From: Kaistia dalseonensis
GTDB lineage: Bacteria; Pseudomonadota; Alphaproteobacteria; Rhizobiales; Kaistiaceae
Direction of reading: 5' to 3'
Assembly: GCF_030814715.1 (NCBI RefSeq)
Contig: NZ_JAUSVO010000005.1
Coordinates: forward strand, 248,001-312,000
Length of the DNA: 64,000 nt
Below are positions 7,642-35,894 of this stretch, one piece after another. The translations under genes were made by a program, and so were the position numbers. Each line of letters starts with the position of its first letter. Position 1 is the stretch's first letter. A model generated the notes under the pieces. That model saw nothing but the letters and a program-made list of their open reading frames with translations, had not been told where the DNA came from and searched no databases.

Positions 7642-7670
7642 ACAAGAAAAGCAGCCACGGGGAGAAGACC

Positions 7671-12732: not shown

Positions 12733-12760
12733 TCGAATGATGTCCACGCAAAAGCCAATT

Positions 12761-14493: not shown

Positions 14494-14511
14494 TTTCTTC
14501 GGTCGCAATCC

Positions 14512-16807: not shown

Positions 16808-17634
16808 GCGGCCCCCGCGGCGGCGAAGGTCTTCATGCTCTCTTCCTCGACGATGGCGAGGAGCTTGCGCTTGATCGCCATGAATTCCTGCGTGGTGACG
16901 ACCGAGGCGTCGCGCGGGCGCGGCAGCGTGATCGTCTCCTCGCATTTGATCGTGCCCGGCCGCGCCGTCATGACGACGACCTTGTCGCCGAGGAAGATCG
17001 CCTCGTCGATGTCATGGGTGATGAAGAGCACAGTGCGCTTGTGCTTCGCCCAGATATCGAGCAGCCAGCGCTGCATCATGCTGCGCGTCAGCGCATCGAG
17101 CGCGCCAAAGGGCTCGTCGAGCAGGATCAGGTCGCGCTCGAACAGGAAGGTGCGCATCAGCGCGACGCGCTGGCGCATGCCGCCGGAAAGCTGCTGCGGA
17201 TAGTGCTTCTCGAAGCCCTTGAGCCCGAATTCCGGAAAGAGCGCCTCGGCCTTCTGCCGCGCGGCCTTCTTCGACATGCCCTCGACTTCGAGCGCGAGCG
17301 TCGCATTGTCGAGCACGGTGCGCCAGGGAAAGAGCAGGTCGCGCTGCGGCATGAAGGCGATCTTGCCGAGCAGCGCGCCATCCTGCTGCGGCTGGCCCTT
17401 GAAGACGACCGAACCGTCGGGATCGGGCGGCAGCAGGCCGGCAATCATGTTGAACAGGGTGGACTTGCCGCAACCGGACGGGCCGATCAGCGTCACGAAT
17501 TCGCCGGGCTGGATCGCGAGATCGACATTGCGCACGGCAACCGTCTGCCGCTCGCCCTCGCCGAAACGCTTCCAGACATTGACGAGCTGGAGGTGGGCGG
17601 GGCCGGAGGCGCCCTCTGCTCTCTTGTCCAGCAC
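16804..17634 (-). CDS. ABC transporter ATP-binding protein (NitT/TauT type)
   Basis: 276 residues with Walker [10 protein letters not shown] near 52-60, signature LSGGMRQR near 150, Walker B LILLDEPFGALD near 170 and switch histidine in ITHDIDEA near 203. The GTG at 17634 is taken as start because AAGGAG lies 6 nt upstream. It energises the two following permeases. A strong hairpin lies between this gene and the upstream binding-protein gene, probably tuning their relative expression. Confidence 0.92.
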   Translation of the reverse strand: MLDKRAEGASGPAHLQLVNVWKRFGEGERQTVAVRNVDLAIQPGEFVTLIGPSGCGKSTLFNMIAGLLPPDPDGSVVFKGQPQQDGALLGKIAFMPQRDLLFPWRTVLDNATLALEVEGMSKKAARQKAEALFPEFGLKGFEKHYPQQLSGGMRQRVALMRTFLFERDLILLDEPFGALDALTRSMMQRWLLDIWAKHKRTVLFITHDIDEAIFLGDKVVVMTARPGTIKCEETITLPRPRDASVVTTQEFMAIKRKLLAIVEEESMKTFAAAGAA

Positions 17635-17711
17635 TGCATTCTCCTTGTTCGCGTCACGGTCGCGCCGGGCGCGGCAATGACGGTCAGTGTGCCGTGGCCG
17701 GCGAATGGATC

Positions 17712-17741
17712 CCGCCATCCCCGCTGGCGCGGGGATGGCGG
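17712..17741. other. Intercistronic hairpin between binding-protein and ATPase genes
   Basis: CCGCCATCCCCGC and GCGGGGATGGCGG form a 13 bp perfect stem with a short loop. It lies between the binding-protein stop (17776) and ATPase start (17634) and has no T-tract, so it looks like an mRNA-stabilising or partly attenuating element rather than a full terminator. Confidence 0.7.
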
Positions 17742-17775
17742 AATGTGAGGCGGAACGTGTGGGGCAGCGCCCCGC

Positions 17776-18786
17776 TCACATCTTCTTGTCTTCGGCCGGA
17801 ACCTTGGCGAAGAATGTCGTGTCGAACGCGGCGGCGAGGTCGACCGGGGCCTTCATCGCCTTGAATTCGACGAGGCTGTCCTGCACGGCGGCGATCGACT
17901 TCATGTCGATGGCGCCGAGGCCTTCCGTGGTGCCGAGCTTGGCGACCATCAGCTTCTCGATCTCGTCGAGCATCAGCTCCTGGTGCTTGCGCTCGAGGCC
18001 GGAGCCGGCGGCGAGCACGATATCGACCGCTTCGGCCTTGTGCTCGAAGGCGTATTTCCAGCCCTTCAGCGTGGCATCGAGGAAGGCCTGAACCTGCTCG
18101 GGCTTCTCCTTGATCATCTTCTCGGAGGTGACGATCGAATCCTGCTGCGTCGTCACGCCGGAATCATCGGGCAGGAACAGCTTGATATCGGTGATGCCCT
18201 GCTCCTTCAGCGTGTTCAGCTCGTTATAGAGCGTGACCGTCGCGACATCGTACTGCTTGTCGATGAAGGGCTGCATCGAGAAGGGCTGCGAGACGACCTG
18301 CAGGTCGGACTGCGCGAGGCCTTCATGGGCGAGGACGGAAAAGAGCGTGTATTGCGGGCCGGTGAACCAGGTCGCGACCTTCTTGCCCTTGAAATCCTTG
18401 ACGGAATTGATGCCCGATTCCGTATAGGCGACATAGGCGAAGGGCGTCATCTGCTGCGACATGCCGATGCAGACGAGCGGCAGGCCCTTCTCGCGGGCAT
18501 AGAGCACGCCTTCCGTACCGCTGGCGATGCCGAACGTGTCGGCGCCGGAGGCGACGAGCGTCTCGACATTGATGTTGGGGCCGCCCGGATTGACGGTGAC
18601 ATCGAGGCCGCCGGCCTCATAGAAGCCCTTGGCCTTGGCGACATAGATGCCGGCGAACTGCGCCTGCGGCAGCCATTTCAGGCGGACGGAAACCGGCTCG
18701 GCGGCGCCGGCCGGCTGGGTGGCGCCCCAAAGGGTCAGCGCCGCGACGAGTGCCGCGCCGGCACCACGCATCAGACTCTTCCTCAT
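17776..18786 (-). CDS. NMT1/THI5-type ABC transporter substrate-binding protein
   Basis: 336 residues. The signal peptide covers about residues 1-28 (MRKSLMRG, hydrophobic core, PAGAAE). The mature part opens with RLKWLPQAQFAGIYVAKAKGFYE, the conserved start of NMT1/THI5-like periplasmic proteins that bind pyrimidines, riboflavin, sulfonates or related small molecules. The ATG at 18786 has AGGAG 9 nt upstream. It heads the operon and a GntR-type motif lies 18 bp before the start. A shorter, signal-less relative is coded at 25625, sharing the PQAQFAG segment. Ligand unknown. Confidence 0.9.
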   Translation of the reverse strand: MRKSLMRGAGAALVAALTLWGATQPAGAAEPVSVRLKWLPQAQFAGIYVAKAKGFYEAGGLDVTVNPGGPNINVETLVASGADTFGIASGTEGVLYAREKGLPLVCIGMSQQMTPFAYVAYTESGINSVKDFKGKKVATWFTGPQYTLFSVLAHEGLAQSDLQVVSQPFSMQPFIDKQYDVATVTLYNELNTLKEQGITDIKLFLPDDSGVTTQQDSIVTSEKMIKEKPEQVQAFLDATLKGWKYAFEHKAEAVDIVLAAGSGLERKHQELMLDEIEKLMVAKLGTTEGLGAIDMKSIAAVQDSLVEFKAMKAPVDLAAAFDTTFFAKVPAEDKKM

Positions 18787-18803
18787 TCCCGACACTCCTG
18801 TTG

Positions 18804-18813
18804 ATGTATGCAG
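18804..18813. promoter_or_regulatory. Candidate GntR operator before the NMT1/THI5 ABC operon
   Basis: ATGTATGCAG lies 18 bp upstream of the binding-protein start and in the region shared with the divergent amidase operon. It differs by one base from CTGTATGCAG at 12761-12770. Confidence 0.5.
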
Positions 18814-18964
18814 AAGAGCATCAGCAATATACATGCCAGCCTTCACACGGCACCGGGATCAAGGGGAGTCGTCGCCATTTTGCCGAGGACCGGATGCAAA
18901 GCCGACAAAACGAGCGCGTCGCGCTCAGAATATGAGCACGGAATATCCAAAACGTCGTTTATTG

Positions 18965-19018: not shown

Positions 19019-20419
19019 ATGGCTGACGACGAGCTCTGGAGCGCCCCCTTCACGACGCTCTCGCCTCAGATCCAGAGCGGCGCGCTGTCGCCGATCGATC
19101 TGACGGAGCTCATGATGGAGCGGATCGCGCGCCATGATGCCGGTCTCCACTCCTATATCACGGTCGCCTCCGACCATGCGCGGGAGCGGGCCCGCAAGGC
19201 CGATGCCGAAATCCGTGCCGGTCGCTATCGCGGGCCCCTGCACGGCATTCCGATGGCGGTGAAGGACGTGTTCTACACGACCGAGATCAAGACCGGCCTC
19301 GGCTCCTCGATCTATGACGACTGGCAGGCGCCTTATGAATCGACGGCGACGCAGCGGCTGAACGATGCCGGTGCGGTCATGCTCGGCAAGCTCACCGCGA
19401 CCGAGGGCGTCTATGCCCAGCACCATCCGACCATCACCGAGCCGATCAACCCCTTCGGCGCTGCGCACTGGACCGGCAATTCCTCGAGCGGATCGGGCGT
19501 CGCCGTCACGTCGGGGCTCGCCTATGCCACGCTCGGCTCCGATACGGGCGGCTCGATCCGCCTGCCCTCCTCCTGCTGCGGCCTGGTCGGGATCAAGCCG
19601 ACCTGGGGCCGCGTCAGCCGGCACGGCGTGATGGCGCTCGCGGAATCGCTCGATCATGTCGGGCCGATGGCGCGCTCGGCGAGGGACGCCGCCGTACTGC
19701 TCGGGCTGATCGCCGGCGCCGATCCGGCAGACCCCACCGCCTCGCCGCTGCCGGTGCCGGACTATCTCGACGGCATTGAGGACGGCATCGTCGGCCTCAC
19801 CATCGGCATCGACTGGGCATTCCTGCGTGCGCGGGCGAATGACGAGGTGCTCGCCTCGATCGAGGGCGTCGTGAAGACCCTGGAAGGGCTCGGCGCACGT
19901 TTCGTCGCCGTCGAATTCCCCAATCCCGATGCGATCCTCTATGGCTGGCACACGCAATGCGCCGTCGAGGCGGCGATCGCGCACCGCGACACATTCCCGT
20001 CGCGCCGGGCCGAATATGGCCCGCGCCTCGCGGCCCTGCTCGATCGCGGCGCCGAAATCACCGGCCTCGAACTGGGCGATGCGCTCAAGTCGCGGCGCGC
20101 CTTCAACGGCGGCGTCGCGCTGATGTTCGCGGAGATCGACCTCTTCCTCGTTCCCGCCCTGCCCGTCGCCGGACCGACGCTCGAATACATGGCTTCGCTC
20201 GGACCCGATCCCGATGGTATCCTCGCCGTCGGCCCCTTCAATGCGCCGTTCGACGTCTGCGGCTATCCGACCATCACCACGCCATGCGGCGCGACCAGCA
20301 AGGGCATCCCCATGGCCCTGCAGCTGGTCGGCAAGCCCTTCGCCGAAGCCCTGCTCTGCCGCGCCGCCCATGCCTATCAAAGCGCGACCTCCTGGCACAA
20401 CCGCCGGCCGACGCTCTGA
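19019..20419 (+). CDS. Amidase (amidase signature family)
   Basis: 466 residues. The Ser-cisSer-Lys triad is visible: lysine in GIPMAVKDVF near 78, serines in GNSSSGSGVA near 155 and in GSDTGGSIRLPSS near 178, followed by GLVGIKPTWGRVS. It hydrolyses an amide to acid and ammonia in the cytoplasm. The ATG at 19019 (MADDELWS) is the start; the longer upstream frame runs through promoter sequence. It is the first gene of the plus-strand catabolic run and is divergent from the NMT1/THI5-type transporter, so the imported compound may contain or yield an amide. Confidence 0.92.
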   Translation: MADDELWSAPFTTLSPQIQSGALSPIDLTELMMERIARHDAGLHSYITVASDHARERARKADAEIRAGRYRGPLHGIPMAVKDVFYTTEIKTGLGSSIYDDWQAPYESTATQRLNDAGAVMLGKLTATEGVYAQHHPTITEPINPFGAAHWTGNSSSGSGVAVTSGLAYATLGSDTGGSIRLPSSCCGLVGIKPTWGRVSRHGVMALAESLDHVGPMARSARDAAVLLGLIAGADPADPTASPLPVPDYLDGIEDGIVGLTIGIDWAFLRARANDEVLASIEGVVKTLEGLGARFVAVEFPNPDAILYGWHTQCAVEAAIAHRDTFPSRRAEYGPRLAALLDRGAEITGLELGDALKSRRAFNGGVALMFAEIDLFLVPALPVAGPTLEYMASLGPDPDGILAVGPFNAPFDVCGYPTITTPCGATSKGIPMALQLVGKPFAEALLCRAAHAYQSATSWHNRRPTL

Positions 20420-20436
20420 TTTCAAAGGAGAATGCC

Positions 20437-21420
20437 ATGACCGAGGTCATCGCCAAGACGATCGATACGGCCAAGACAGCTGATACTGCCAGGACAATCG
20501 ATATGGCCGAGATGCCGGTGCAGCTTCCCGCCCATCCGGCCGGGTCCGCCGAGGCGCGGGCGCGCTTCTTCAATTCCGGCAATGCCTTCAACGTCAAGCT
20601 GCCGCCAGTTCCGGCGGCGGGCTTCACCGACGAGATCGCGGCCGCCTTCGGCGCCACAATGACCGGGTTCTTCCCTTGCGACCAGTCCGCCGCGATCGGC
20701 GCGCCCTTCACGGCAACGACGCCTCTGATGCTCGCGCGCTATGCATCGATTGCGCCGAACGACCGGCTTACGGCGGATTTCGTCGCGACCGGTGCGATCT
20801 GGTACGTGATCAAGGGCGCGGGCGCGGCGACGATCGGCGCCGAAGCCTTCGCATGGGGCGCGGGCGACGTCTTCCTCGCGCCGGGCGGCACTCCGACCAT
20901 CCTCACCGCCGGCGCCGAGGGTGCGGTGCTCTGGGTCGTCACCAACGAGCCGCAGCTCGCCTTCGACAGCCTGCGTCCGGCTGATAGCGACCACGCGCCG
21001 GTCAAGGCCGTGCACTATCCGGCGGCCGAAATCGCCACGCAGTTGCAGAAGGTCGTGCAGGCCTCCCAGAACGCCACCACATCGGGCATCGCGCTGATCT
21101 TCTCCTCCGAGGAGCAGGAGAAGAGCCGCAACATCCTGCCGACGCTGACGCTCTCATTGAACACCGTTCCGGCCGGCGAGCAGCAGCGCGCGCACCGGCA
21201 TAATTCGGCGGCGATCACCCTGATCCTCAAGGGCGAGCATTGCTATTCGATGGTGGGCGGGAAGCGCTGCGACTGGTCGCCCTTCGCCACGCTGGTGACG
21301 CCGGCGACCGATCCGCATTCGCACCATAATGACAGCGACGAGCGCGCCATGTTCCTGATCGTGCAGGATGGCGGGCTCTATTATCACGCCCGCACCATGG
21401 GTTTCACGTTCCTGGAGTGA
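20437..21420 (+). CDS. Bicupin-domain protein
   Basis: 327 residues with two cupin-like halves. Metal-binding histidines are clearest in the C-terminal half: HRHNSAAI near 247 and HSHHNDSDE near 288. The N-terminal half lacks an obvious HxH. The layout resembles gentisate dioxygenase-like bicupins, but the identity is too uncertain to name a reaction. The first 25 residues contain a T/A/D-rich stretch (TIDTAKTADTARTIDMAE). AAAGGAG lies 7 nt before the ATG, 17 bp after the amidase stop, so the two are cotranscribed. Confidence 0.8.
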   Translation: MTEVIAKTIDTAKTADTARTIDMAEMPVQLPAHPAGSAEARARFFNSGNAFNVKLPPVPAAGFTDEIAAAFGATMTGFFPCDQSAAIGAPFTATTPLMLARYASIAPNDRLTADFVATGAIWYVIKGAGAATIGAEAFAWGAGDVFLAPGGTPTILTAGAEGAVLWVVTNEPQLAFDSLRPADSDHAPVKAVHYPAAEIATQLQKVVQASQNATTSGIALIFSSEEQEKSRNILPTLTLSLNTVPAGEQQRAHRHNSAAITLILKGEHCYSMVGGKRCDWSPFATLVTPATDPHSHHNDSDERAMFLIVQDGGLYYHARTMGFTFLE

Positions 21421-21466
21421 CGCCGGCGCGTAAGTCCGCTTCGATCGTTGCCACCATGCAAAACGT

Positions 21467-21548
21467 CGTCATCCCCGCGAAAGCGGGGACCCATTCAGCC
21501 ACCAGCGGACATCGGCTGAATGGATCCCGGGTCAAGCCCGGGATGACG
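21467..21548. repeat. REP-like four-arm palindromic element, copy 1
   Basis: Outer arms CGTCATCC and GGATGACG enclose three hairpins: CCCCGCGAAAGCGGGG, CCATTCAGCC with GGCTGAATGG, and CCCGGGTCAAGCCCGGG. Related copies lie at 47406-47504 and, in reverse order, 51317-51398. It fills most of the gap between the bicupin and nucleoside hydrolase genes. Confidence 0.85.
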
Positions 21549-21597
21549 GCGTTCTGGTTGGCACCATCCATCCGATAGCCCACATCGAGTTCCCTCC

Positions 21598-22542
21598 ATG
21601 ACCACCCGCCTGATCATCGACACCGACACCGCCGGCGACGACTGCTTTTCCCTGCTGCTCGGCCTGCTTCACCCGAAGGCGAAGCTCGAGGCCGTGACGA
21701 TCTGCAATGGCAATGTCGATTTCGACCAGCAGGTCGAGAATGCGCTGCACACGATCGAAGTGACCGGGCGCGGCGGCGAGGTTCCGGTCTATCTCGGCAG
21801 CGCGCGGCCGCTGATGGGGCGCTGGCAGGCGGCGAGCTTCCACGGCTCGAACGGCATGAGCGAGCGGCAGTTCGAGCCGGCGAAGCAGCGGCCGGAGTCG
21901 AAACACGCGATCGACGCTATCATCGATCTCGTCATGGCAAATCCCGGCGAGATCTCGATCATCGCGCAGGCGCCGCTGACCAATATCGCGCTCGCCTTCC
22001 TGAAGGAGCCGAAGATCGCCAAGGCGCTCAAGCATCTCTGGATCATGGGCGGCACCGACCACGCCTTCGGCAACATCACGCCGATGGCCGAGTTCAACTT
22101 CTTCGTCGATCCCGAAGCGGCCAAGATCGTGCTCGGCGCCGGCTTCAACATCACGCTCTCGACCTGGACGCTGACGCTGAAATCCGGCTCGTTCGACGCG
22201 GCGACCGTGGACGCGATCGAAAAGCTCGATACGCCGCTCTCGCGCTTCTACATGCAGGTGACGGAGACGCCGCGCCGCGTCGCGTTCGAGCGCTATGGCG
22301 AGACGATCTCGACCCATCCGGATTCGCTCACTTGCGCCATGGCGATCGATGAAAGCCTGATTCTCGAAAGCGCCGCTGTGGTGGTCGATGTCGAGGTCGG
22401 CGGCGATCTCTCGCGCGGCCATTCGAGCGTCTATCCCGCCCGCCTCGTCGAGCGCTGGCCCGATCGCGACGCCAATGCGCGCATCGTGCGCACCGCCGAC
22501 ACCAAGGGTTTCGCCAATATGATGATGTCGGTGCTCGCATGA
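21598..22542 (+). CDS. Nucleoside hydrolase-like protein (IUNH family), paralogue A
   Basis: 314 residues. The calcium-site signature reads DTDTAGDDC at 8-16, keeping all four aspartates at the positions they hold in characterised inosine-uridine hydrolases but replacing the usual P-G by T-A. C-terminal THPDSLTCAMAID near 238-250 supplies the later histidine and aspartate. It should cleave an N-glycosidic bond, possibly of an unusual nucleoside. It is very similar to the product of 30433-31392. Its stop overlaps the next start (ATGA), coupling it to the flavin monooxygenase. Confidence 0.9.
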   Translation: MTTRLIIDTDTAGDDCFSLLLGLLHPKAKLEAVTICNGNVDFDQQVENALHTIEVTGRGGEVPVYLGSARPLMGRWQAASFHGSNGMSERQFEPAKQRPESKHAIDAIIDLVMANPGEISIIAQAPLTNIALAFLKEPKIAKALKHLWIMGGTDHAFGNITPMAEFNFFVDPEAAKIVLGAGFNITLSTWTLTLKSGSFDAATVDAIEKLDTPLSRFYMQVTETPRRVAFERYGETISTHPDSLTCAMAIDESLILESAAVVVDVEVGGDLSRGHSSVYPARLVERWPDRDANARIVRTADTKGFANMMMSVLA

Positions 22543-23843
22543 AGCGTCAGATCCATTTCGGCCTCTTCATCATGGGCACCGGTAGCCATATTGCCGGCTG
22601 GCGCTATCCCGGCGCCTTCGACAGCTTCCAGAATTTCGACCAGATCAAGGAGATCGGCGCCGCCGCCGAGCGCGGCAAGTTCGACCTGATCTTCATGGGC
22701 GACAATCTCTATGCCGATCCGGCCGCGCACCCCTCCTATACGCTGCGCCTCGAACCGCTGACGATGCTGGCGGCGCTCTCGCAATCGACCAGCCATATCG
22801 GCCTCGGCGCGACGGCCTCGACGACCTATGGCGACCCGTTCTCGACGGCGCGCGCCTTCGCCTCGCTCGACCATATCTCCAAGGGCCGCGCGGCCTGGAA
22901 CGCAGTCACGACCGCGAATGCCGTCACGGCGGCGAATTTCGGCCGCGACCATCCCGACCACAGCCAGCGCTATGCGATCGCCGAGGAATTCGTCGGCGTG
23001 GTGCGCGGGCTCTGGGATTGCTGGGACGATGACGCGCTGGTCGCGAACCGCGAGACCGGGCTCTATATCGATCCCGCCAAGGTGCGCCCGCTGAACCATG
23101 AGGGCGCGTTCTTCCAGGTCAAGGGCCCGGTCAATATCGGCCGTTCGCCACAGGGCCAGCCGGTCATCCTGCAGGCCGGCGGCTCCGCGCCCGGCCAACG
23201 CCTGGCGGCACGCACGGCCGACGTGATCTTCTCCGTGGTGCAGGATTTCGACGAGGCGGCGAAGCAATATGCCGGCTTCAAGGCCCAGCTCGCCCAGTTC
23301 GGCCGCCGGCCCGAGGACGTGACGGTGCTGCCCGGCTTCATGCCCGTCGTCGGCCGCACGGAGCGCGAGGCGTTCGACAAGCTCGCGACATTGCAGGGCT
23401 TCGTCTCGACGACCAATGCGCTCACCATGCTCTCGGAACGCTTCGGCACCGATATGAGCGCCTATGATCTCGACGGCCCGGTGCCGGACATCCAGTTTCC
23501 CGACACCTACCACTCCTTCACCAGCGTGATGATCGCCAAGGCGCGCCGCGAAAACCTCACCTTGCGCGACATCTATAATCTGACGGCGGCGGCGCGTGGC
23601 CATTGGGTGCTGTGCGGTTCGGCCGAGATGATCGCCGATACGCTGCAATACTGGTTCGAGAACGGCGCCGCCGACGGCTTCAACGTCATGCCGCCCTATT
23701 TCCCGGACGGCTTCAACGATTTCGTCGACCTCGTCGTGCCGATCCTGCAGGAGCGCGGCCTGTTCCGCACCGAATACGAAGGCACGACGCTGCGCGACCA
23801 TCTCGGCCTCACGCGGCCGGCGGTCGGGGAGTGGGCGGGATGA
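22539..23843 (+). CDS. LLM-class flavin-dependent monooxygenase (NtaA/SnaA/DszA family)
   Basis: 434 residues, an FMNH2-dependent TIM-barrel monooxygenase. Family segments are FGLFIMGTGSH near 7, the long LGATASTTYGDPFSTARAF near 88 and DHISKGRAAWNAVTT near 110-124. Relatives oxidise nitrilotriacetate, dibenzothiophene sulfone, pristinamycin or cleave riboflavin, often at C-N or C-S bonds. Coupling to a nucleoside hydrolase suggests attack on the released heterocycle. It needs a flavin reductase, and none is evident here. A 187 bp inverted-repeat element follows. Confidence 0.9.
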   Translation: MKRQIHFGLFIMGTGSHIAGWRYPGAFDSFQNFDQIKEIGAAAERGKFDLIFMGDNLYADPAAHPSYTLRLEPLTMLAALSQSTSHIGLGATASTTYGDPFSTARAFASLDHISKGRAAWNAVTTANAVTAANFGRDHPDHSQRYAIAEEFVGVVRGLWDCWDDDALVANRETGLYIDPAKVRPLNHEGAFFQVKGPVNIGRSPQGQPVILQAGGSAPGQRLAARTADVIFSVVQDFDEAAKQYAGFKAQLAQFGRRPEDVTVLPGFMPVVGRTEREAFDKLATLQGFVSTTNALTMLSERFGTDMSAYDLDGPVPDIQFPDTYHSFTSVMIAKARRENLTLRDIYNLTAAARGHWVLCGSAEMIADTLQYWFENGAADGFNVMPPYFPDGFNDFVDLVVPILQERGLFRTEYEGTTLRDHLGLTRPAVGEWAG

Positions 23844-23872
23844 GCACGAGCCGCTCTTGGCGTGCGCCTTCC

Positions 23873-24059
23873 TTAACCCGCCCCTTGCGGACGGGTCGAA
23901 AACGCCCTCGCGTTTTCGGGGCGGGGTTAGCCTTGGCGAAGCCGAGGCGTTCTTTCGCCAGCTTGTCCTTATCCTGCCGGGCCGGCGGCAGGGCGCACCA
24001 ACCCGACCCCGCCCCAAAACCGCTACGCGGTTTTGACCCGCCCGCAAGGGGCGGGTTAA
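23873..24059. repeat. 187 bp MITE-like element with 18 bp perfect terminal inverted repeats
   Basis: The left end TTAACCCGCCCCTTGCGG (23873-23890) and right end CCGCAAGGGGCGGGTTAA (24042-24059) are exact complements. Inner arms include AAAACGCCCTCGCGTTTT and AAAACCGCTACGCGGTTTT. There is no transposase. It occupies most of the 285 bp between the monooxygenase and aldehyde dehydrogenase genes and could fold into a long hairpin in the transcript. Confidence 0.8.
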
Positions 24060-24128
24060 GCGGAGACTGCATCATCCGTCGCGCCTCACCTTACTGCGCC
24101 GCGACCACACTGTTGACCCGGAGGTCCC

Positions 24129-25628
24129 ATGTCTGACCAACCCCTCTGGAGCGGCAACCGGCTCTATTATGGCGGCACATGGCAGGTCGCGAAGGGCTCC
24201 GGCTCGATCGCTGTCGCCAGCCCGGCGACGCAGGAGGTCTATGGCGCCGTGCCCATAGCCAATGCCGAGGACGTCGAGGCAGCCGTGGCGGCGGCGGAGG
24301 CTGCCGGTCCGGCCTGGGCGGCAATGGATGCGCTCGATCGCGGGCGGCATCTGCGCGCCGTGGCCGACATCGTGCGCGCCCGCATGGGCGATCTCGCCAC
24401 CATGGAAGCGGCCATCACCGGTCGCCCGATCCGCGAGATGCGGGCGCAGATGGGCCGCATTCCCGAATGGCTCGATTATTTCGGCGGCATAGCGGCAGGA
24501 CTGGAAGCGGAATCAAATCGCCTGCGCGGCGGCTTCCTCTCCTACACCGCCTATGAGCCGCACGGCGTCTGCGCGCTGCTGACGCCGTGGAACCATCCGA
24601 TCCTGATCCTGGTCAAGAAGCTCGCGGCGGCACTCGCCGCTGGCAATACGGTGGTGATAAAGCCGTCCGAACTCGCACCCGCGACGCCGCTTCTGTTCGC
24701 GCAATGGTGCACCGAGGCCGGGCTCCCCGCCGGCGTCGTCAATGTCGTGACCGGCGACGGCACGACCGGCGCCCTCCTCTGCGACGCGCCGGCCGTGCGC
24801 CATATCGACCTGACCGGCGGCACTGTGACGGGAAAACGCGTCGCGGCAGCGGCGGCCGCGCGGCTCGTGCCCTGCACGCTGGAGCTCGGCGGCAAGACGC
24901 CCGTGGTGATCTTCGAGGACAGCAACATCGAGGAAGCGGCGGCCGGTGCGGTCTTCGCCGCCTTCGTCGCCGCCGGGCAGACCTGCGTCTCCGCCAGCCG
25001 CTTCATCGTGGCCGAGGCGATCTATGACGAGTTCCTCGAAGCCTTCGTCAGGCGCGTCAAGGCGTTGAAGGTCGGCGACCCCGCCGATGTCGCGACCGAT
25101 GTCGGCCCCGTCATTTCGGCCGCCTCGCAGGCGCGCTGCCGCGCCCATATCGAGCGCGCGCAGGCCGAAGGGGCGCGGCTCGTCGCCGGCGGCGGCACGC
25201 CCGTCCTGCCGGCTCCCTTCTCCAGCGGCAATTATGTCCAGCCGACCGTCTTCGCCGATGTGACGGCGAGCATGACGCTTTTCCGCGAGGAAGTGTTCGG
25301 GCCGATCGCCGCAGTGACACCGTTCCGCGACGAGGCGGAGGCGCTGAACCTCGCCAATGACACGCCCTATGCGCTCGGCGCCTCGATCTGGACGCGCGAT
25401 GTCGCCCGCGCCCATCGCATGGCCGGCAAGGTCCGCGCCGGCATGATCTGGGTCAATGATCATCACAAGAACGACCCGCGCTCGATCTGGGGCGGTTTCG
25501 GCGATAGCGGCTACGGCACGGAAAACGGCTGGGACGCGCTCAAGAGCTACCAGCGGAAGCGAAACGTCGTGGTGAGCACGGCGACCGGCTTCGACGACTG
25601 GTTTGCCGGTGGAAAGCGATACGGATGA
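24129..25628 (+). CDS. Aldehyde dehydrogenase family protein
   Basis: 499 residues. The catalytic cysteine lies in AAGQTCVSASRF near 282, the general-base glutamate in LELGGKTPVV near 250, and the NAD-binding region in PWNHPILILVKKLAAAL near 157. It oxidises an aldehyde to a carboxylate with NAD(P). GGAGG precedes the ATG at 24129. Its stop overlaps the next ATG (ATGA). In the run it would oxidise an aldehyde made by the flavin monooxygenase or by the dehydrogenase complex; the substrate is not known. Confidence 0.92.
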   Translation: MSDQPLWSGNRLYYGGTWQVAKGSGSIAVASPATQEVYGAVPIANAEDVEAAVAAAEAAGPAWAAMDALDRGRHLRAVADIVRARMGDLATMEAAITGRPIREMRAQMGRIPEWLDYFGGIAAGLEAESNRLRGGFLSYTAYEPHGVCALLTPWNHPILILVKKLAAALAAGNTVVIKPSELAPATPLLFAQWCTEAGLPAGVVNVVTGDGTTGALLCDAPAVRHIDLTGGTVTGKRVAAAAAARLVPCTLELGGKTPVVIFEDSNIEEAAAGAVFAAFVAAGQTCVSASRFIVAEAIYDEFLEAFVRRVKALKVGDPADVATDVGPVISAASQARCRAHIERAQAEGARLVAGGGTPVLPAPFSSGNYVQPTVFADVTASMTLFREEVFGPIAAVTPFRDEAEALNLANDTPYALGASIWTRDVARAHRMAGKVRAGMIWVNDHHKNDPRSIWGGFGDSGYGTENGWDALKSYQRKRNVVVSTATGFDDWFAGGKRYG

Positions 25629-26569
25629 ACGACGCCCCCTTGACCACGATCCGCATCCGGCTGCTCTGGCATCCGCAGGCGCAGTTTGCCGGCTATCTGA
25701 TTGCCGAGCACGAGGCGCTGGCGCGCGATGCCGGCCTCGCCATCCAATGCGTGCCGCTCGATTTCGCCAAGGGGCCGATCCAGGCCCTGCTCGATGGCGA
25801 CGTCACCTTCGCGGTCGCGAGCCCGTCGCATATGCTGGAATCGGGCCGCGCCGACGAACTCGTCTTCCTCGCCGCGATCCAGCAGACGAGCTCGCTCGTC
25901 TATCCCGCGCGGAGGAGCGCCGGCATCGAGAAGCCGACCGATCTCGCCGGCCACAAGCTCGGCGTCTGGCCGGGGCGCGAGGATCTCGAGCTGACCTGGA
26001 TGCTGCATCGCGCCGGCCTTTCCGTCGATGCCTATGAGCGCGTGCCGGTTGGCGATACCGTTGCGGCCATGCTCGACCGCTCGGTCGATTGCGCGCAGAT
26101 GACGACCTATCACGAGATCCATCATCTGGAGCACGCGAGCGGCTCGCTCGACGATTTCGTACTGTTCAAGGCGGCCGATTACGACGCCTCGCTGTTGAAG
26201 GACGGTCTGATCGCCCGGCGCGACTGGGTCGCCGCCCATCCGGCCGAGACGCAGGCCGTGATCGACGCGGTGCTGACCGGCTGGACCAAGGCGTTCCACG
26301 AACTCGACGCCGCGATCGAGCTTTGCAGCAAGCTCCGCCCCGATATGAGCCGGCTCGAGCATGAGGGCCAGCTTGGCGACATCCGCGCTCTGTCGCTCAC
26401 CGGCGCGACGCTGACCGAAGGCCTCGGCTTCCCCGACCCCAGGCACGTGACGCAGGCGCTGATCGCCATGAGCGAGGTCGAGGGTCACGCCGTTGGTGAC
26501 GCGGCCGGCCTCGTCGACGATCGCTTCTGGCGCGCGGCCCCCGAGGCAGTCCGGGGCCGATCGTGGTAG
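25625..26569 (+). CDS. NMT1/THI5-like protein without signal peptide
   Basis: 314 residues with the fold of NMT1/THI5 substrate-binding proteins: IRLLWHPQAQFAGYLIAEHEA at 11-31, then AVASPSHML and DLAGHKLGVWPGRED. It begins MNDAPLTTIRIRL with no hydrophobic leader, so it should stay in the cytoplasm. Fungal THI5 is an HMP-phosphate synthase with a CCCFC motif, and no such motif is present. The gene is coupled by ATGA to the aldehyde dehydrogenase and overlaps the next gene by 7 bp, so it is expressed with enzymes, not with transporter subunits. Function unknown: a ligand carrier, a sensor, an enzyme, or a binding protein that lost export. Confidence 0.8.
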   Translation: MNDAPLTTIRIRLLWHPQAQFAGYLIAEHEALARDAGLAIQCVPLDFAKGPIQALLDGDVTFAVASPSHMLESGRADELVFLAAIQQTSSLVYPARRSAGIEKPTDLAGHKLGVWPGREDLELTWMLHRAGLSVDAYERVPVGDTVAAMLDRSVDCAQMTTYHEIHHLEHASGSLDDFVLFKAADYDASLLKDGLIARRDWVAAHPAETQAVIDAVLTGWTKAFHELDAAIELCSKLRPDMSRLEHEGQLGDIRALSLTGATLTEGLGFPDPRHVTQALIAMSEVEGHAVGDAAGLVDDRFWRAAPEAVRGRSW

Positions 26570-27711
26570 CGGGCGCGGATGTCATCGTCGTCGGCGCCGG
26601 CGTGGTCGGCGCGGCGGTCGCGGAGGCGCTGAGCCGGACCGGCCGTAGCGTGCACGTCGTCGAGCAGGGCCTGCCCGGCGGCGCCGTGTCCGGCGCCAGC
26701 CTCGCCTGCATCGGCACGCATATGAACGACGAGGAGGAACTGCCGTTCCTCAAATGGTGCTGCGATGAATGGGCCGCTTTCGACGCGCACACGCCGACCT
26801 TCGAATATGACCGCTGCGGCCAGCTCCGGTTCCTGAAGCAGGAGAGCGAGCTGAATTCGGCGCGGCACTGGATCGATGTCGAGCGGAACGCCGGCCTCGC
26901 GCCCGAACTGCTCGATCCGGCCGAGGTGCGCCGGATCGAGCCGCTTTTGACCGGGCCGATCCATTCCGCGACCTGGTCGCCCAATTCGGCGGTCGTGAAC
27001 CCCTTCCTCGCCGTGCGCATGCTGCTCGAAACCGCACAGGCGCAGGGCGTAAGACTCACCAGCCGCGCGCCGGCGACGAAGCTGCGCCTCAAGGGCGATC
27101 GCGTCATCGGCGTCGAGACCAGCGCGGGGCCGATCGATGGCGATCATGTCGTGATCGCGGGCGGGCCCTGGACGGCGAAGCTCGCCGCGACCGCCGGCGT
27201 CGATCTCCCGATCGTGCCGCGCAAGGCGCAATGCCTTGCCACAGTCTCACAACCGCGCTCGATCCGCACCGTCGTTGGCGCCTGCAAGGCCGAGGGTGGC
27301 GTCGATGCTGGCTATACCCAGATCCAGCAGGCGATGAGCGGGCAGATCCTGTTCAATACCGTCCTCGAAGGTGGCGTGACGGCGCATGGCAGCCCGGATG
27401 CCGTGCCGGAGGTTGATCGCGCCTTCATCCGCGATTCGGTCGAGACGCTGCTGTTCCTTTTTCCGAGCTTCGCCGAGATCGAGCTGCTGCGCTCCTGGGT
27501 GCGCTATGAGGCGGTGACGCCGGACGATCGTTTTCTCACCGGCCCGGTCGGCCCCGACGGCCTCTATATTGCGGCGGGCGATGGCGGGGTGGGCTTCTGC
27601 CGGTCGGTCGGCATGGGACGGATCATCGCCGACCAGATCGAGGGCCGGCCCTCGCCCTTCCGCACCGATCTCTACGATCCCGCCCGCTTCGAGCGGAGGC
27701 AGGCGGCATGA
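26563..27711 (+). CDS. FAD-dependent amino-acid oxidoreductase, DadA/HcnC-like subunit
   Basis: 382 residues of D-amino-acid oxidase type. The FAD-binding dinucleotide fold DVIVVGAGVVGAAVAEAL is at 6-23, and GDGGVGFCRSVGMG near 345 closes the FAD site. The GTG start at 26563 overlaps the previous gene by 7 bp; the stop overlaps the next ATG. Together with the following two genes it forms a three-part dehydrogenase like HcnABC (hydrogen cyanide synthase), opine oxidases or D-hydroxyproline dehydrogenases, which oxidise a C-N bond of an amino acid at the membrane or in the cytoplasm. The substrate is not determined. Confidence 0.88.
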   Translation: MVAGADVIVVGAGVVGAAVAEALSRTGRSVHVVEQGLPGGAVSGASLACIGTHMNDEEELPFLKWCCDEWAAFDAHTPTFEYDRCGQLRFLKQESELNSARHWIDVERNAGLAPELLDPAEVRRIEPLLTGPIHSATWSPNSAVVNPFLAVRMLLETAQAQGVRLTSRAPATKLRLKGDRVIGVETSAGPIDGDHVVIAGGPWTAKLAATAGVDLPIVPRKAQCLATVSQPRSIRTVVGACKAEGGVDAGYTQIQQAMSGQILFNTVLEGGVTAHGSPDAVPEVDRAFIRDSVETLLFLFPSFAEIELLRSWVRYEAVTPDDRFLTGPVGPDGLYIAAGDGGVGFCRSVGMGRIIADQIEGRPSPFRTDLYDPARFERRQAA

Positions 27712-27956
27712 CGATCGTGATCCACATCGATGGACGCGCCGTCACGGCCGAAGCCGGGCGGCCACTCGGCGCGATCCTGCATCGCGAGACCAACGCCGTG
27801 CTGCGCGAGACGCCGAAGAGCCATGCGCCGCGCGGCCTCTTCTGCGGCATGGGCGTCTGCTTCGATTGCCTCGTGACGATCGACGGCCGGGCCAATGTCC
27901 GCGCCTGCGTCACGCCGGTCCGCGACGGCATGCGCGTCGAGACGAGGCGGTCATGA
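27708..27956 (+). CDS. (2Fe-2S)-binding subunit, HcnA-like
   Basis: 82 residues. The cluster ligands are C-GMGV-C-FD-C at about 46-54 and a fourth cysteine in RACVTP near 65, the plant-type ferredoxin pattern used by the small subunit of HcnABC-like dehydrogenases. It passes electrons between the flavins of the two larger subunits. It is coupled to both neighbours by ATGA overlaps. Confidence 0.9.
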   Translation: MTIVIHIDGRAVTAEAGRPLGAILHRETNAVLRETPKSHAPRGLFCGMGVCFDCLVTIDGRANVRACVTPVRDGMRVETRRS

Positions 27957-29347
27957 AGGTTTTCAAGACCGATATCGCCATCATCGGCGGCGGCCCGGCC
28001 GGACTCTCGGCGGCGCTCGCAGCCGCCAAGGCCGGCGCCAGGGTCGACATCATCGATGCCGGCTTCCTGCCCGGCGGCCAATACTGGATGCAGGACCCGA
28101 CCGGCGCCCCGCCGCTCTCCGATCAGGTGAGCGAGGGCCGCGACGCGATCGCGACCATTCGCGCCGCCGGCGTCACCATCCATTCCGGCGCCGAAGTCTG
28201 GACCGTGTTTCCCGATCTGAAGATCGGCGCCAACGGGCCGGATGGGCCGTTCGAGATCGTGCCGCGCGCGATCATCGTGGCGAGCGGCGCGCATGATCGC
28301 GTCATGCCCTTTCCCGGCTGGACGCTGCCCGGCGTGATGACGCCCGGCGCCGGCCAGCGGCTCGCCAAGCTCGGCGGAATGAGCGCCGGCGACCGCGTCG
28401 TGCTGGCCGGCAGCGGTCCGTTCCTGCTCGCCGTCGCCGAGACGTTGGCCAAGATCGGCAAACCGCCGATCGCGCTCATTGAGGCGAAGCGCACCAATGC
28501 CGGCATCCTCGCCCATATGGCGCGCCATCCCGCGCGCTGGCGCGAGGCAGCGCGACTGCTCGCCACGGCGCGCGCCATACCCGACCGCCGCGCGGGCTGG
28601 ATCGTGACCGAAGCGCTCGGCACGGAGCGCGTCACCGCCGTCCGCATCGCTCCGATCGCGACCAATGGCGTGATCGCGCATGACGACGCCGAGGTGATCG
28701 CCGGCATCGACGCGCTACTGGTCGGCTGGGGCTTCCGGCCGATGATCGAGGTGACGGCGCTGCTGCGCTGCCGGCATGAGTATGACCGCGCGCAAGGCGG
28801 CTGGTTCTGCGCCACCGATCCGAAGAGCGGCAGGACATCGGTCGAACACGTCTATGCCGCTGGCGAAGTGACCGGCATTGCCGGTTCGGTGCCCGCGCGC
28901 CTCTCCGGCCGCCTCGCCGGCCTCGCCGCCGCCGCCGATCTCGGCTTCATTGGTTCAGACCCCGCCGCCGCGCAGGCGGAGGCCGTTGCGAAACTCATGC
29001 CCGCGCGGCGCTTCGCCTATGGCCTCGGCCGGCTCTATGCGCCGCCCGAAAGCCTCGCCGATCTCGCGCAGGACGACACGGTGCTCTGCCGCTGCGAGGA
29101 AGTGACGAAGCGCGATGTCGCCGCCGCTCTCGATGCGGGAACGCAGGCCGTTTCGGGCGCCAAGATGTGGACGCGCGCCGGCATGGGCCGCTGCCAGGGC
29201 CGCGTCTGCGGCTGGGGCATCGCCGAAATCGCCGCGCGGATCACCAGCACGACACCGGAGGCCGCCGGCTTCAACGCCCCCCGCATCCCGCTCCGCCCCG
29301 TCCCTCTCTCGGTCGTTCTGGAAGCGACGCGGGAGGTGGAAGCGTGA
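27953..29347 (+). CDS. NAD(P)/FAD-dependent oxidoreductase, HcnB-like subunit
   Basis: 464 residues. The N-terminal FAD motif IAIIGGGPAGLSAALAAAKAG is at 8-28, a second dinucleotide fold VVLAGSGPFLLAVAE is near 145, and a C-terminal BFD-like cluster region has CRC near 382 and CQGRVC near 417. This two-domain layout with a C-terminal iron-sulfur module matches HcnB/OoxA-type subunits. The ATG at 27953 overlaps the 2Fe-2S gene stop; a longer upstream frame is antisupported by this coupling. It completes the heterotrimer begun at 26563. Confidence 0.9.
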   Translation: MKVFKTDIAIIGGGPAGLSAALAAAKAGARVDIIDAGFLPGGQYWMQDPTGAPPLSDQVSEGRDAIATIRAAGVTIHSGAEVWTVFPDLKIGANGPDGPFEIVPRAIIVASGAHDRVMPFPGWTLPGVMTPGAGQRLAKLGGMSAGDRVVLAGSGPFLLAVAETLAKIGKPPIALIEAKRTNAGILAHMARHPARWREAARLLATARAIPDRRAGWIVTEALGTERVTAVRIAPIATNGVIAHDDAEVIAGIDALLVGWGFRPMIEVTALLRCRHEYDRAQGGWFCATDPKSGRTSVEHVYAAGEVTGIAGSVPARLSGRLAGLAAAADLGFIGSDPAAAQAEAVAKLMPARRFAYGLGRLYAPPESLADLAQDDTVLCRCEEVTKRDVAAALDAGTQAVSGAKMWTRAGMGRCQGRVCGWGIAEIAARITSTTPEAAGFNAPRIPLRPVPLSVVLEATREVEA

Positions 29348-29639
29348 GTCGGCCGGCCAATCTTCCTTGTCCCCTCCCCTTTATTGGGAGGGAGAAGCAA
29401 GGGTGTTCCACCACGCAGGCTTCGGCAGCTCGCCCCCTCCCTAACCCTCCCCCGCTTCGCGGGAGAGGGGACGCACCCGCGGCCAACGACGATGTCAACC
29501 AAACGCCCGCCCTGCCGGGCGACGAGCGGGGCGTCGACGATTGCGCAACCGGACAGCTGGGTCTCCCCCCACCTCCCCCGCGAGGGTGGAGGCGAAGGAA
29601 GGACCCGCCACACCAACACACCACCACAGGAGACTTTCC
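29348..29639. repeat. Intergenic palindromic sequence sharing the core of the 258 bp repeat
   Basis: The gap contains CCCCTCCC with GGGAGGG at 29370-29395 and, at 29433-29470, a core almost the same as in the tandem array at 2842-2877 (CCCCCTCCCTAACCC followed by a GCTTCGC hairpin and GGGAGAGGGG). A third stem CCACCTCCCCCGCGAGGGTGG lies near 29570. No gene is supported here. Confidence 0.7.
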
Positions 29640-30425
29640 ATGGATCTGCGTTTGACCGGCAAGACGGTTCTCATCACCGGCGCATCGCAGGGGATCGGCG
29701 CCGGGCTGGCGCGGGCCTTCGCCGAGGAGGGCTGCCATCTCGCGCTCACCGCCCGCAACACCGAGAAGCTCGAAGCGGTGAAGGCCGATATCGAGGCTGA
29801 TTACCCCGACCTGCCGATCAAGCTGGTGCCGCTCGACCTGACCGTGCCGGGCGCGCCCGAGACGCTGATCGACGAGGTCGGCGATGTCGACATTCTCGTC
29901 AACAATGCCGGCGTCATTCCCTCGGGCTCGCTGTTCGACATCGACGAAGCCAAGTGGCGCGCCGGCTGGGAACTGAAGGTGTTCGGCTACATCAATCTCT
30001 GCCGGCTCTATTATCCGCGCATGAAGGCGGCCGGCGGCGGCGTCATCATCAACAATATCGGCAATGGCGGCGAGGTGACGGACCCGCGCTACATCGCCGG
30101 CGCCGTCGGCAATGCCAGCCTGATGCACTTCACCCGCGCGCTCGGCGGTTCCAGCCTCGACGACAATATCCGCGTCGTCGGCGTCAATCCCGGCCCGGTC
30201 AACACCGACCGCATCTTCAACATGCTGAAGAAGCGCGCCAAGGACCTCTATGGCGAGGAATCCCGCTTCGAGGAACTGGCGAGCACCTATCCGCTCGGCC
30301 GGCCGGCCCATGTGCACGAGATCACCGACCTGATCGTATTCCTCGCCTCCTACCGTTCGGGCTACACCTCGGGCACGATCATGACCGTCGATGGCGGCAT
30401 TGCCTCGCGCCGCTCGATCATCTGA
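29640..30425 (+). CDS. SDR family protein lacking the usual YxxxK
   Basis: 261 residues with an intact cofactor motif TGASQGIG near 12-19 and NNAG near 85. At the active site, YIAGAVGNASL near 142-152 has tyrosine, but the lysine four residues on is alanine and the spacing to the following helix is three residues longer than in classical SDRs. It may belong to a divergent SDR group that keeps GNASL, with altered or absent redox activity. CAGGAG precedes the ATG at 29640. It is followed after 7 bp by a nucleoside hydrolase. Confidence 0.85.
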   Translation: MDLRLTGKTVLITGASQGIGAGLARAFAEEGCHLALTARNTEKLEAVKADIEADYPDLPIKLVPLDLTVPGAPETLIDEVGDVDILVNNAGVIPSGSLFDIDEAKWRAGWELKVFGYINLCRLYYPRMKAAGGGVIINNIGNGGEVTDPRYIAGAVGNASLMHFTRALGGSSLDDNIRVVGVNPGPVNTDRIFNMLKKRAKDLYGEESRFEELASTYPLGRPAHVHEITDLIVFLASYRSGYTSGTIMTVDGGIASRRSII

Positions 30426-30432
30426 GCCCGTC

Positions 30433-31392
30433 ATGCGGCTGATCATCGACACGGACACGGCCGGCGACGACTGCTTCTCGATCCTGCTCGCGCTCAGGAA
30501 CCCGGCGGTGAAGCTGGAGGCGATCACGATCTGCAACGGCAATGTCGATTTTGCACAGCAGATCGAGAACGCGCTCTACACGCTGGAGATCGCGGGCGCC
30601 GGCGGCCGCGTCCCGGTCCATCCCGGCTGTCCACTGCCGATGATCCGCAAGCCCGTCGACGCCACCGAGTTCTTCGGCGCCGACGGCATGAGCGATGCGA
30701 ACTATCCCAAGGCGGCACAGCGTCCGGACCCGAAGCACGCGGTCGATGCGATCATCGATCTCGTGATGAGCCATCCGGGCGAGATCGACATTCTCGCGCA
30801 GGCGCCGCTCACCAATATCGCCGCCGCCTGGGTGAAGGAGCCGCGGATCGCCACGGCCACGCGCCATCTCTGGGTGATGGGCGGGATGGACAATTCGATC
30901 GGCAATACGACGCCGGCCTCCGAATTCAACTTCTATGTCGACCCGGAAGCCGCGAAGATCGTCGCCAAAGCCGGCTTCAATCTGACGCTCTCGACCTGGA
31001 CGCTGACGCTGAAATCCGGAACGCTGCCGGACGAGGTCCTCGCCGAAATCGCTGCCATGGACACGCCGCTTGCGCGCTTCTTCATGCGGATCAGCGAGGC
31101 GCCGTTCGAGCGCACGCGCATCCGCTATGGAAGGCCACTCAGTACGCACCCGGACTCGCTCACCTGCGCGCTGGCGATCGACGAGAGCCTGATCCTCGAC
31201 AGCGCAGACTGCCTGCTCGATGTCGAGACGCAGGGCGAGCTGACGCGTGGCTATTCGAGCCTCTGCGTGCCCAACCAGGGCCTCGACGCGATCGCAGACC
31301 CGCTCTGGCCATCGGGCAAGCCCAATTGCCGCGTCGTGCGGGAAGCCGACACCGCCCGCTTCGGTGCGATGCTGGTCGACGCGCTCCGATAG
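30433..31392 (+). CDS. Nucleoside hydrolase-like protein (IUNH family), paralogue B
   Basis: 319 residues beginning MRLIIDTDTAGDDCFS; the aspartates of the calcium site are at 6, 8, 12 and 13. It matches paralogue A (21598-22542) along its length: same TICNGNVDF, QAPLTNIA, STWTLTLKSG and HPDSLTCA segments. Both differ from the canonical family member at 1-694. An N-glycosidic substrate related to that of paralogue A is likely. A perfect 12 bp hairpin follows the gene at 31426-31457. Confidence 0.9.
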   Translation: MRLIIDTDTAGDDCFSILLALRNPAVKLEAITICNGNVDFAQQIENALYTLEIAGAGGRVPVHPGCPLPMIRKPVDATEFFGADGMSDANYPKAAQRPDPKHAVDAIIDLVMSHPGEIDILAQAPLTNIAAAWVKEPRIATATRHLWVMGGMDNSIGNTTPASEFNFYVDPEAAKIVAKAGFNLTLSTWTLTLKSGTLPDEVLAEIAAMDTPLARFFMRISEAPFERTRIRYGRPLSTHPDSLTCALAIDESLILDSADCLLDVETQGELTRGYSSLCVPNQGLDAIADPLWPSGKPNCRVVREADTARFGAMLVDALR

Positions 31393-34905: not shown

Positions 34906-34913
34906 CCGGCGCC

Positions 34914-34940
34914 TGAACCTTCGATCTCGAGGAAGGTTCA
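34914..34940. terminator. Terminator-like hairpin between convergent genes
   Basis: TGAACCTT and AAGGTTCA form an 8 bp stem, extended by flanking CCGGC and GCCGG, in the 60 bp between the convergent dehydrogenase and DapA-family genes. There is no T-tract; it could serve both directions. Confidence 0.55.
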
Positions 34941-34965
34941 AGCCGGCTGCGGCGGCGCTTTCGGG

Positions 34966-35853: not shown

Positions 35854-35894
35854 GGACGTCTCCTCGGGCGGTTCCCCTGCCCTCTTTCGGTGAA

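Follow-up and report, generated by a model that had tools for sequence, protein, structure and literature searches.

A conserved gene cluster of Kaistia, apparently built from two modules, with a possible role in N-riboside breakdown

To our knowledge, the routes by which modified nucleosides from RNA turnover are broken down are hardly known. The described systems closest to the locus studied here are the Rut (RutA-G) and Pyd routes of pyrimidine breakdown, the ThiXYZ and THI5 proteins, the three-subunit dehydrogenases OdhBCA, D-hydroxyproline dehydrogenase and HcnABC, and the nucleoside hydrolases of Sulfolobus solfataricus. Opine dehydrogenase genes lie in the order OdhB-C-A, equivalent to beta-gamma-alpha (PMC4575208), and the S. 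solfataricus hydrolases are known exceptions in having no histidine before the last aspartate (PMC8910321). Here we analyse a window of 64,000 nucleotides, the whole stretch of DNA under study, from the soil bacterium Kaistia dalseonensis (NZ_JAUSVO010000005.1, 248,001-312,000; contig C5 of a 5.18 Mb genome, G000), which holds a run of eleven plus-strand genes at 19019-31392. In order, these encode an amidase, a bicupin, a nucleoside hydrolase (NH-A), an NtaA/DmoA-type flavin mononucleotide (FMN)-dependent luciferase-family monooxygenase (LLM), an aldehyde dehydrogenase (ALDH), an NMT1-like protein, the DAO, 2Fe-2S and FAD/BFD subunits of a flavin/2Fe-2S dehydrogenase, a short-chain dehydrogenase (SDR) and a second nucleoside hydrolase (NH-B).

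An initial annotation had described about eleven genes, many of them with overlapping stops and starts, between NMT1/THI5-type and energy-coupling factor (ECF) uptake systems, and had assigned them to one pathway for an N-ribosylated or otherwise glycosylated heterocycle. The eleven genes were confirmed by open frames with high third-position G+C and by Pfam and NCBIfam, with the small 2Fe-2S subunit recognised by its cysteine motif rather than by either scan. Neighbouring genes overlap by 4-7 bases at five of the ten junctions, and Pfam bore out both uptake systems. The list of enzymes stands in its parts, and needs the addition of the NMT1-like gene (25625-26569), which lies inside the run and is apparently cytosolic. 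Among the matches listed for ten run proteins, an NCBIfam cut-off was reached by the LLM and the SDR alone, in each case that of a subfamily. The components are of known kinds and their combination is new to us; the annotation likewise knew no described pathway with this gene set, and no counterpart was found in literature searches, which mainly covered papers outside subscription. The cluster is conserved, composite and rare, and part of it appears mobile.

Gene order within Kaistia and in other genomes

Gene content in other genomes argues that the run is a fusion of two modules, a joining of two older gene sets. Module 1 comprises the amidase, bicupin, NH-A, LLM and SDR together with an ATP-binding cassette (ABC) transporter, a class II aldolase, a GntR regulator and ECF genes, and module 2 comprises the ALDH, a cytosolic protein of the ThiY/THI5 fold and the flavin/2Fe-2S dehydrogenase. 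In G112, a genome of another family, contig C5 (L107) carries ECF genes, GntR, aldolase, ABC transporter, amidase-bicupin-nucleoside hydrolase-LLM-SDR and an Amdase-like gene, with the dehydrogenase absent; contig C2 carries GntR, then ALDH-ABC-substrate-binding protein (SBP)-cytosolic NMT1-DAO-2Fe2S-FAD subunit, with no nucleoside hydrolase. Module 2 is accompanied by its own NMT1-type ABC transporter in each of G014, G144, G338, L043 and L044 (the L044 contig stretch stops before the dehydrogenase genes). A GntR gene of 35-45% identity lies near it in G014, G338, L043 and L044, and G144 has a weak match about 12 kb away. Seven genomes carry module 2 on one strand with LLM and SDR on either side of it, and there it has no ATPase or permease of its own. 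Judged by these comparisons, the arrangement in Kaistia resembles an insertion of module 2, minus its ATPase and permease, between LLM and SDR of module 1. The larger intergenic gaps of the run measure 177, 285 and 292 bases, and the two widest coincide with the two module borders, which the 177-base gap does not.

The SDR was present in 16 of the 17 stretches compared, the exception being that of G112 contig C2. Nucleoside hydrolase, bicupin, class II aldolase and SDR occur together in Neorhizobium galegae, G336, G459 and G112, joined by the LLM in three of these four (N. galegae, G336 and G112, without G459). An aminotransferase, a hydrolase and an M20 amidohydrolase occupy the place of module 2 in N. 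galegae, G336 and G459, and the aminotransferase-SDR-hydrolase-M20 set was also found in G014, G144, G338, Rhizobium CB3060, Methylobacterium currus and Tistrella. Module 2 and this set do not simply replace each other, since G014, G144 and G338 carry both together. In N. galegae VafX2 (L075, plasmid), the M20 gene aligns with its relatives only as two fragments and the alpha/beta hydrolase does so only in part (16738-18880), and both frames look broken. A gene of the Amdase/Asp-Glu-racemase family occurs with the cluster in G112 contig C5 (L107), G076 (L067), L043 and L044, four stretches in which the aminotransferase-hydrolase-M20 set gave no match or a weak one.

Within the genus, 31 window genes were compared by tblastn with seven further loci and with two loci from metagenome-assembled genomes (MAGs); genomes counted as Kaistia include Kaistia soli, K. 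hirudinis, a 'Bosea' MAG and 'Mesorhizobium sp. BR1-1-16'. Six of the seven genus loci share the gene order at 64-88% protein identity; G014, the remaining one, carries module 2 alone. The shared order runs SBP-ATPase-permease-permease-aldolase-GntR, then hydrolase, PCC and ECF genes on the divergent arm, and amidase-bicupin-NH-A-LLM-ALDH-cytosolic NMT1-DAO-2Fe2S-FAD subunit-SDR on the arm of the run. That six other Kaistia genomes repeat this order is more than chance. NH-B was not found at the corresponding place in any of the six clusters (about 16 kb examined on that side); G076 (L067) has module 2, then an SDR gene and an NH-B counterpart (76%). Five of the six (L049, L051, L054, L055 and L060) carry an extra orphan NMT1 protein between FAD subunit and SDR, perhaps a remnant of module 2; G024 and the window have no such extra protein. 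The cytosolic NMT1 protein, taken as the marker of module 2 (best E < 1e-100), was detected in 8 of 14 Kaistia genomes and 11 of 397 sampled genomes of the order, and a class-wide search found it in one of 385 genomes, the window's own. The nucleoside hydrolase clade (E 1e-75) was detected in 10 of 387 order genomes.

The similarity of module 1 between families is unusual. GyrB and ParE of the window genome show 86-90% identity to seven other Kaistia and 70-77% to G112, and most of the 14 module-1 proteins are no closer to Kaistia than to G112 (mean identity 81% vs 83% for LLM, 77% vs 82% for bicupin, 79% vs 84% for GntR). Permease, aldolase and NH-A are closer to Kaistia by 1-3 points, and the ECF substrate-specific (S) component, matched in two of six Kaistia, by 7. 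Dividing the mean distance from the genus to G112 by that from the window to other Kaistia gives 1.08 for module 1 (10 proteins), 1.41 for module 2 (5 proteins), 2.13 for gyrB and 3.29 for parE; hence module 1 did not simply follow the genomes, and module 2 is intermediate. These values point to passage of module 1 between lineages, in either direction, with unequal rates as a possible alternative. Such a transfer need not be a recent event: in the NH-A tree the seven Kaistia rows group together and G112 lies just outside them (support 95/99).

Predicted enzymes and binding proteins

The dehydrogenase genes are ordered beta-gamma-alpha in 13 of 14 module-2 loci, L044 being the one cut short, and both [2Fe-2S] motifs, C-X4-C-X2-C-X12-C and CxC...CX4C, occur in 13 of 13. 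The set named "HcnABC-like" in the initial annotation needs a correction, as its gene order is that of OdhB-C-A (PMC4575208). We predict that the module-2 trimer is an opine-dehydrogenase-type FAD/FMN/2Fe-2S enzyme; the best PDB match of its DAO subunit reached only 125 bits (1y56_B).

The NMT1-like protein of the run starts at the first beta strand in all 14 orthologues. By hydropathy, no signal-peptide-like hydrophobic stretch was found in in-frame upstream extensions (up to 60 codons, 13 relatives), where 12-residue hydropathy peaked at 0.49 vs 1.92 in a periplasmic control, and we presume the protein to be cytosolic. It scores 25.2 with TIGR01728 (SsuA type) vs a cut-off of 163.5. No PDB relative was found by phmmer at E 0.001, while a fold search does find relatives: both NMT1 proteins are nearest to ThiY, thiamin-bound 4nmy and THI5, the nearest solved structures of the periplasmic SBP being 4nmy, ThiY 3ix1, THI13 and THI5. 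The cytosolic copy matches the overall fold of THI5 hydroxymethylpyrimidine phosphate (HMP-P) synthase; CCCFC, which we take to be the motif of that enzyme, was not seen in its alignment. A cytosolic ThiY-like protein linked to a dehydrogenase would be an unusual use of the binding-protein fold.

Both nucleoside hydrolases exceed the PF01156 gathering score of 34.2 (Table 1). NH-A falls in a clade of 14 that is separate from the six other paralogues of the genome included in the tree, and NH-B is sister to the G076 nucleoside hydrolase (support 100/99). The N-terminal Asp cluster and the GN.TP..E(F/Y)N..D ribose/Ca motif are kept in 14 of 14 clade rows (G268 with S for P). The leaving-group His that precedes the last Ca-binding Asp in group I CU-NH was not found in these 14 rows, all of which have Pro, and the loop His is replaced by Phe in NH-B, G076 and G268. 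The bicupin has the gentisate/salicylate-dioxygenase fold with a 3-His metal site and is a putative ring-cleaving dioxygenase. Its distant relatives were searched for a substrate and gave none: one in Variovorax adjoins a TauD-family gene and acyl-CoA genes, and in G596 and G765 the neighbouring gene pair is TauD-like by eye only. The LLM scores 54.4 bits with TIGR03612 (RutA; cut-off 498.3) and is closer to 3sdo, YtnJ and DszA than to riboflavin lyase (203 bits).

A possible pathway and competing explanations

We tentatively favour, at close to even confidence, a locus, assembled from the two modules, that would import a non-canonical N-riboside carrying a pyrimidine-like base and degrade it step by step. 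This substrate class was chosen because of the ThiY/THI5 kinship, the riboside hydrolases, the nucleoside-type genes in sister loci and the provision for uracil elsewhere in the genome. Ordinary uracil appears to be served elsewhere because RutA is over its cut-off at contig C2 and a reductive pyrimidine locus lies at contig C8 (L128, G000:C8:92000-108000), where dihydropyrimidinase occurs with M20, class III aminotransferase, ALDH and an NMT1 ABC transporter, so that such a transporter accompanies pyrimidine breakdown in the same genome. A 382-aa protein of L128 (6830-7978) had no Pfam match at E 0.001. The best lead to the nature of the base is Rhizobium sp. CB3060 (L076, from Leucaena), where the aminotransferase-SDR-hydrolase-M20 set lies on one strand with a BMP-family ABC transporter, nucleoside phosphorylase and deoC. 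Mimosine was considered from the origin of this strain and dropped, as we know of no Leucaena-like host for the other carriers.

Sequence and comparison show the protein families, the gene order, the conserved cofactor and metal motifs, the two-module structure and the unusual likeness of module 1 between families; from these we infer reactions, step order and substrate class as follows. The NMT1-type ABC and ECF systems of module 1 would import the riboside or base, and NH-A (here also NH-B) would cleave the N-ribosyl bond. The NtaA-type monooxygenase and the gentisate-type bicupin may then oxidise and open the ring, after which the amidase would hydrolyse amide or ureido fragments, the class II aldolase remove a carboxylate or split the carbon skeleton, and the SDR adjust an alcohol or carbonyl. 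Module 2 would take off the amine: the opine-dehydrogenase-type enzyme would oxidise a C-N bond and the ALDH the aldehyde formed, while the cytosolic relative of thiamin-pyrimidine-binding proteins may hold the substrate for the dehydrogenase or be an enzyme of the THI5 kind. A bolder version, possible rather than probable, is an undescribed pathway for a modified nucleoside (e.g. a pyrimidine riboside from tRNA or plants whose side chain is N-alkyl or an amino acid). A periplasmic binding protein of the ThiY type would there have turned into a cytosolic carrier or enzyme for the opine-dehydrogenase-type flavoenzyme, and a ring-cleavage module passed between families would have merged with an amine-oxidation module.

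Several observations weigh against an N-riboside pathway spanning both modules. The modules lie on different contigs in G112, and no nucleoside hydrolase stands beside module 2 in the stretches of 11-39 kb compared from G014, G144, G338, L043 and, up to the end of its contig, L044; separation in relatives, which the initial annotation had named as evidence against its proposal, was thus found in part. The proposed single pathway is partly supported: a coupling of N-riboside cleavage to ring, amine and aldehyde oxidation and amide hydrolysis finds support, with hydrolase, bicupin, aldolase and SDR recurring together in four genomes, and indivisibility of the whole does not. The two markers co-occur in two genera, with 4 and 4 carrier genera among 141 (hypergeometric P 0.0036), these being small numbers from two slightly different order samples (397 and 387 genomes). 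Hydrolase activity of the NH proteins is only putative because the usual general-acid His is missing from the active site. The bicupin scores 58.8 with TIGR02272 (gentisate 1,2-dioxygenase) vs a cut-off of 442.1 and its distant relatives sit in other gene contexts; the S component does not reach the cut-off of its family and has matches in only two of six Kaistia; and kinship with ThiY/THI5 does not fix a ligand. The main rival, on balance unlikely, is that two independent pathways are co-located, module 1 acting on a riboside or heterocycle and module 2 on a separately imported N-alkyl amine or opine-like amino acid. The two G112 contigs with their separate GntR genes and ABC transporters, the module-2 loci without an adjacent nucleoside hydrolase and the wide gaps at the module borders suit this explanation. 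Counting against it are the same-strand insertion of module 2 between LLM and SDR in seven genomes, without its own ATPase or permease, the same SDR family beside both modules and the genus-level co-occurrence of the markers.

A role in salvaging or degrading thiamin, or its pyrimidine (hydroxymethylpyrimidine, formylaminopyrimidine), is improbable. Both NMT1 proteins and the adjoining ECF system would suit it, but we know of no place for nucleoside hydrolase, class II aldolase or bicupin in known thiamin salvage. No Rfam family matched at its gathering score in the window or in 136.5 kb of related stretches (covering half of each locus for six Kaistia and G076), hence no thiamin pyrophosphate (TPP), FMN or preQ1 riboswitch was found there, and the vitamins named in the initial annotation, riboflavin and thiamine, gain no regulatory support. 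A variant Rut/Pyd route for uridine, cytidine or thymidine would share the logic of NMT1 ABC transporter, LLM and amidase, and M20 carbamoylase and aminotransferase occur in sister loci; with RutA at C2, dihydropyrimidinase, M20 and NMT1 ABC at C8 and the low RutA score of the LLM, we consider it very improbable. Queuine, the base of the N-riboside queuosine, contains a secondary amine, and the LLM is distantly related to riboflavin lyase. Catabolism of queuosine/7-deazaguanine, riboflavin or a pyridine nucleoside is nevertheless hardly to be expected, given the riboswitch result, the nearer relatives of the LLM and an S component at no named family's cut-off: in the comparison with QueT/QrtT-type components it gave 125.5 bits with NF045596 (CD3073; cut-off 180) and weak folate-family matches only, its counterparts being in two of six Kaistia and G112. 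Queuosine, riboflavin and thiamin were weighed with, among other sources, PMC11130926 and placed low.

Modules that occur both separate and fused form a natural experiment; in a defined, rare gene set, the question of the substrate is therefore open to experimental test by ligand binding or deletion.

Surroundings of the run and comparison with described systems

Table 1. Features of the run and of the divergent block in the window.
Feature	Position	Strand	Evidence
Two ECF-type ABC ATPase genes	9213-10019, 10012-10860	-	Pfam ABC_tran; 10012-10860 with 71-77% counterpart in 6 Kaistia
CbiQ-type ECF transmembrane protein	10851..11645	-	PF02361
ECF substrate-specific (S) component, nearest CD3073 family	11651..12223	-	PF12822 33.2 bits
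PCC/DUF296-domain protein	12280..12747	-	PF03479; kept next to cluster in 6 Kaistia
Alpha/beta hydrolase	12911..13753	+	Pfam; 52-58% in 6 Kaistia, 62% in G112
GntR/FCD regulator of module 1	13765..14508	-	PF07729/PF00392
Class II aldolase/adducin-type enzyme (decarboxylase or aldolase)	14512..15300	-	PRK07044 338.5 bits, cut-off 207; 57% in N. galegae, G336, G459
Second ABC permease	15303..16067	-	Open frame; Kaistia counterparts match first permease at 32-33%
ABC permease	16043..16945	-	PF00528; open-frame limits, true start possibly internal
ABC ATPase	16804..17718	-	PF00005; open-frame limits, true start possibly internal
NMT1/THI5-type SBP of ABC transporter	17776..18846	-	PF09084
Amidase-signature hydrolase, module 1	19019..20419	+	PF01425 313 bits; 73-75% in 6 Kaistia and G112; 56% in Tistrella
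Bicupin, putative ring-cleaving dioxygenase, module 1	20437..21420	+	
Nucleoside hydrolase A (NH-A), module 1	21598..22542	+	PF01156 260.2 bits
NtaA/DmoA-family FMN-dependent monooxygenase (LLM), module 1	22539..23843	+	TIGR03860 537.2 bits, cut-off 279.7
ALDH, module 2	24129..25628	+	PF00171 527 bits
NMT1/ThiY/THI5-fold protein, presumed cytosolic, module 2	25625..26569	+	No signal peptide
DAO-type FAD subunit, beta, module 2	26563..27711	+	PF01266 199 bits
Small [2Fe-2S] subunit, gamma, module 2	27708..27956	+	C-X4-C-X2-C-X12-C conserved 13/13
FAD/BFD-type subunit, alpha, module 2	27953..29347	+	PF07992, PF04324, PF17806; CxC...CX4C conserved 13/13
SDR, accompanies both modules	29640..30425	+	PRK06125 383 bits, cut-off 261
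Nucleoside hydrolase B (NH-B)	30433..31392	+	PF01156 254.4 bits

The gap between bicupin and NH-A (21421-21597) holds a palindromic repeat resembling repetitive extragenic palindromic (REP) elements, with a 27-base core present in 11 genome copies at up to 3 mismatches (reversed control 0); gaps 23844-24128 and 29348-29639 resemble it by eye only. Window positions 1-8666 may be another nucleoside locus close to the cluster: a BMP-family ABC transporter of the PnrA-like type (723-5992), possibly for nucleosides, occurs there with an SDR, a phosphoribosyltransferase-domain gene (6982-7641) and, at the left edge of the window (C5:247834-248685), a nucleoside hydrolase. The whole genome has 15 nucleoside-hydrolase matches. 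Downstream, at 31468-38908, a DHDPS-PdxA-SDR-BNR_2 (sialidase-like) run on the minus strand, together with a sulfatase and another ALDH, makes up a possible sugar-acid locus, with an SBD_N/NBD_C kinase-domain gene beyond it (44939-46129).

Each described system shares part of this gene set. The Pyd locus at C8 is like the cluster in having an NMT1 ABC transporter beside amide/ureido hydrolases, a nitrogen-removing enzyme and ALDH, whereas the run has no dihydropyrimidinase or dihydropyrimidine dehydrogenase and carries nucleoside hydrolase, LLM and bicupin in their stead. With the Rut pathway it shares a luciferase-family monooxygenase that depends on FMN and would be expected to attack and open an N-heterocycle, but the LLM is of the NtaA/DmoA type and no run gene reached the cut-off of a Rut model among the matches listed. 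ThiXYZ (ThiY) and THI5 have the fold of the NMT1 proteins and are their nearest solved relatives; in Kaistia, by contrast, one copy is presumably cytosolic and tied to a dehydrogenase, and no TPP riboswitch was found in the stretches searched. The nearest solved relatives of the nucleoside hydrolases are 3t8i/3t8j of S. solfataricus, which likewise have no His before the last Asp; NH-B, G076 and G268 differ from them additionally in the Phe that replaces the loop His. Finally, the family of OdhBCA, D-hydroxyproline dehydrogenase and HcnABC shares with module 2 three subunits, the beta-gamma-alpha order of OdhB-C-A (PMC4575208) and both kinds of Fe-S motif, along with an Arg-X-Trp in the DAO subunit of the window; the CxC-to-CX4C spacing is 32 in module 2 vs 15-20 in PMC4575208 and, unlike that family, the module-2 enzyme is linked to an ALDH and a presumably cytosolic ThiY-like protein.

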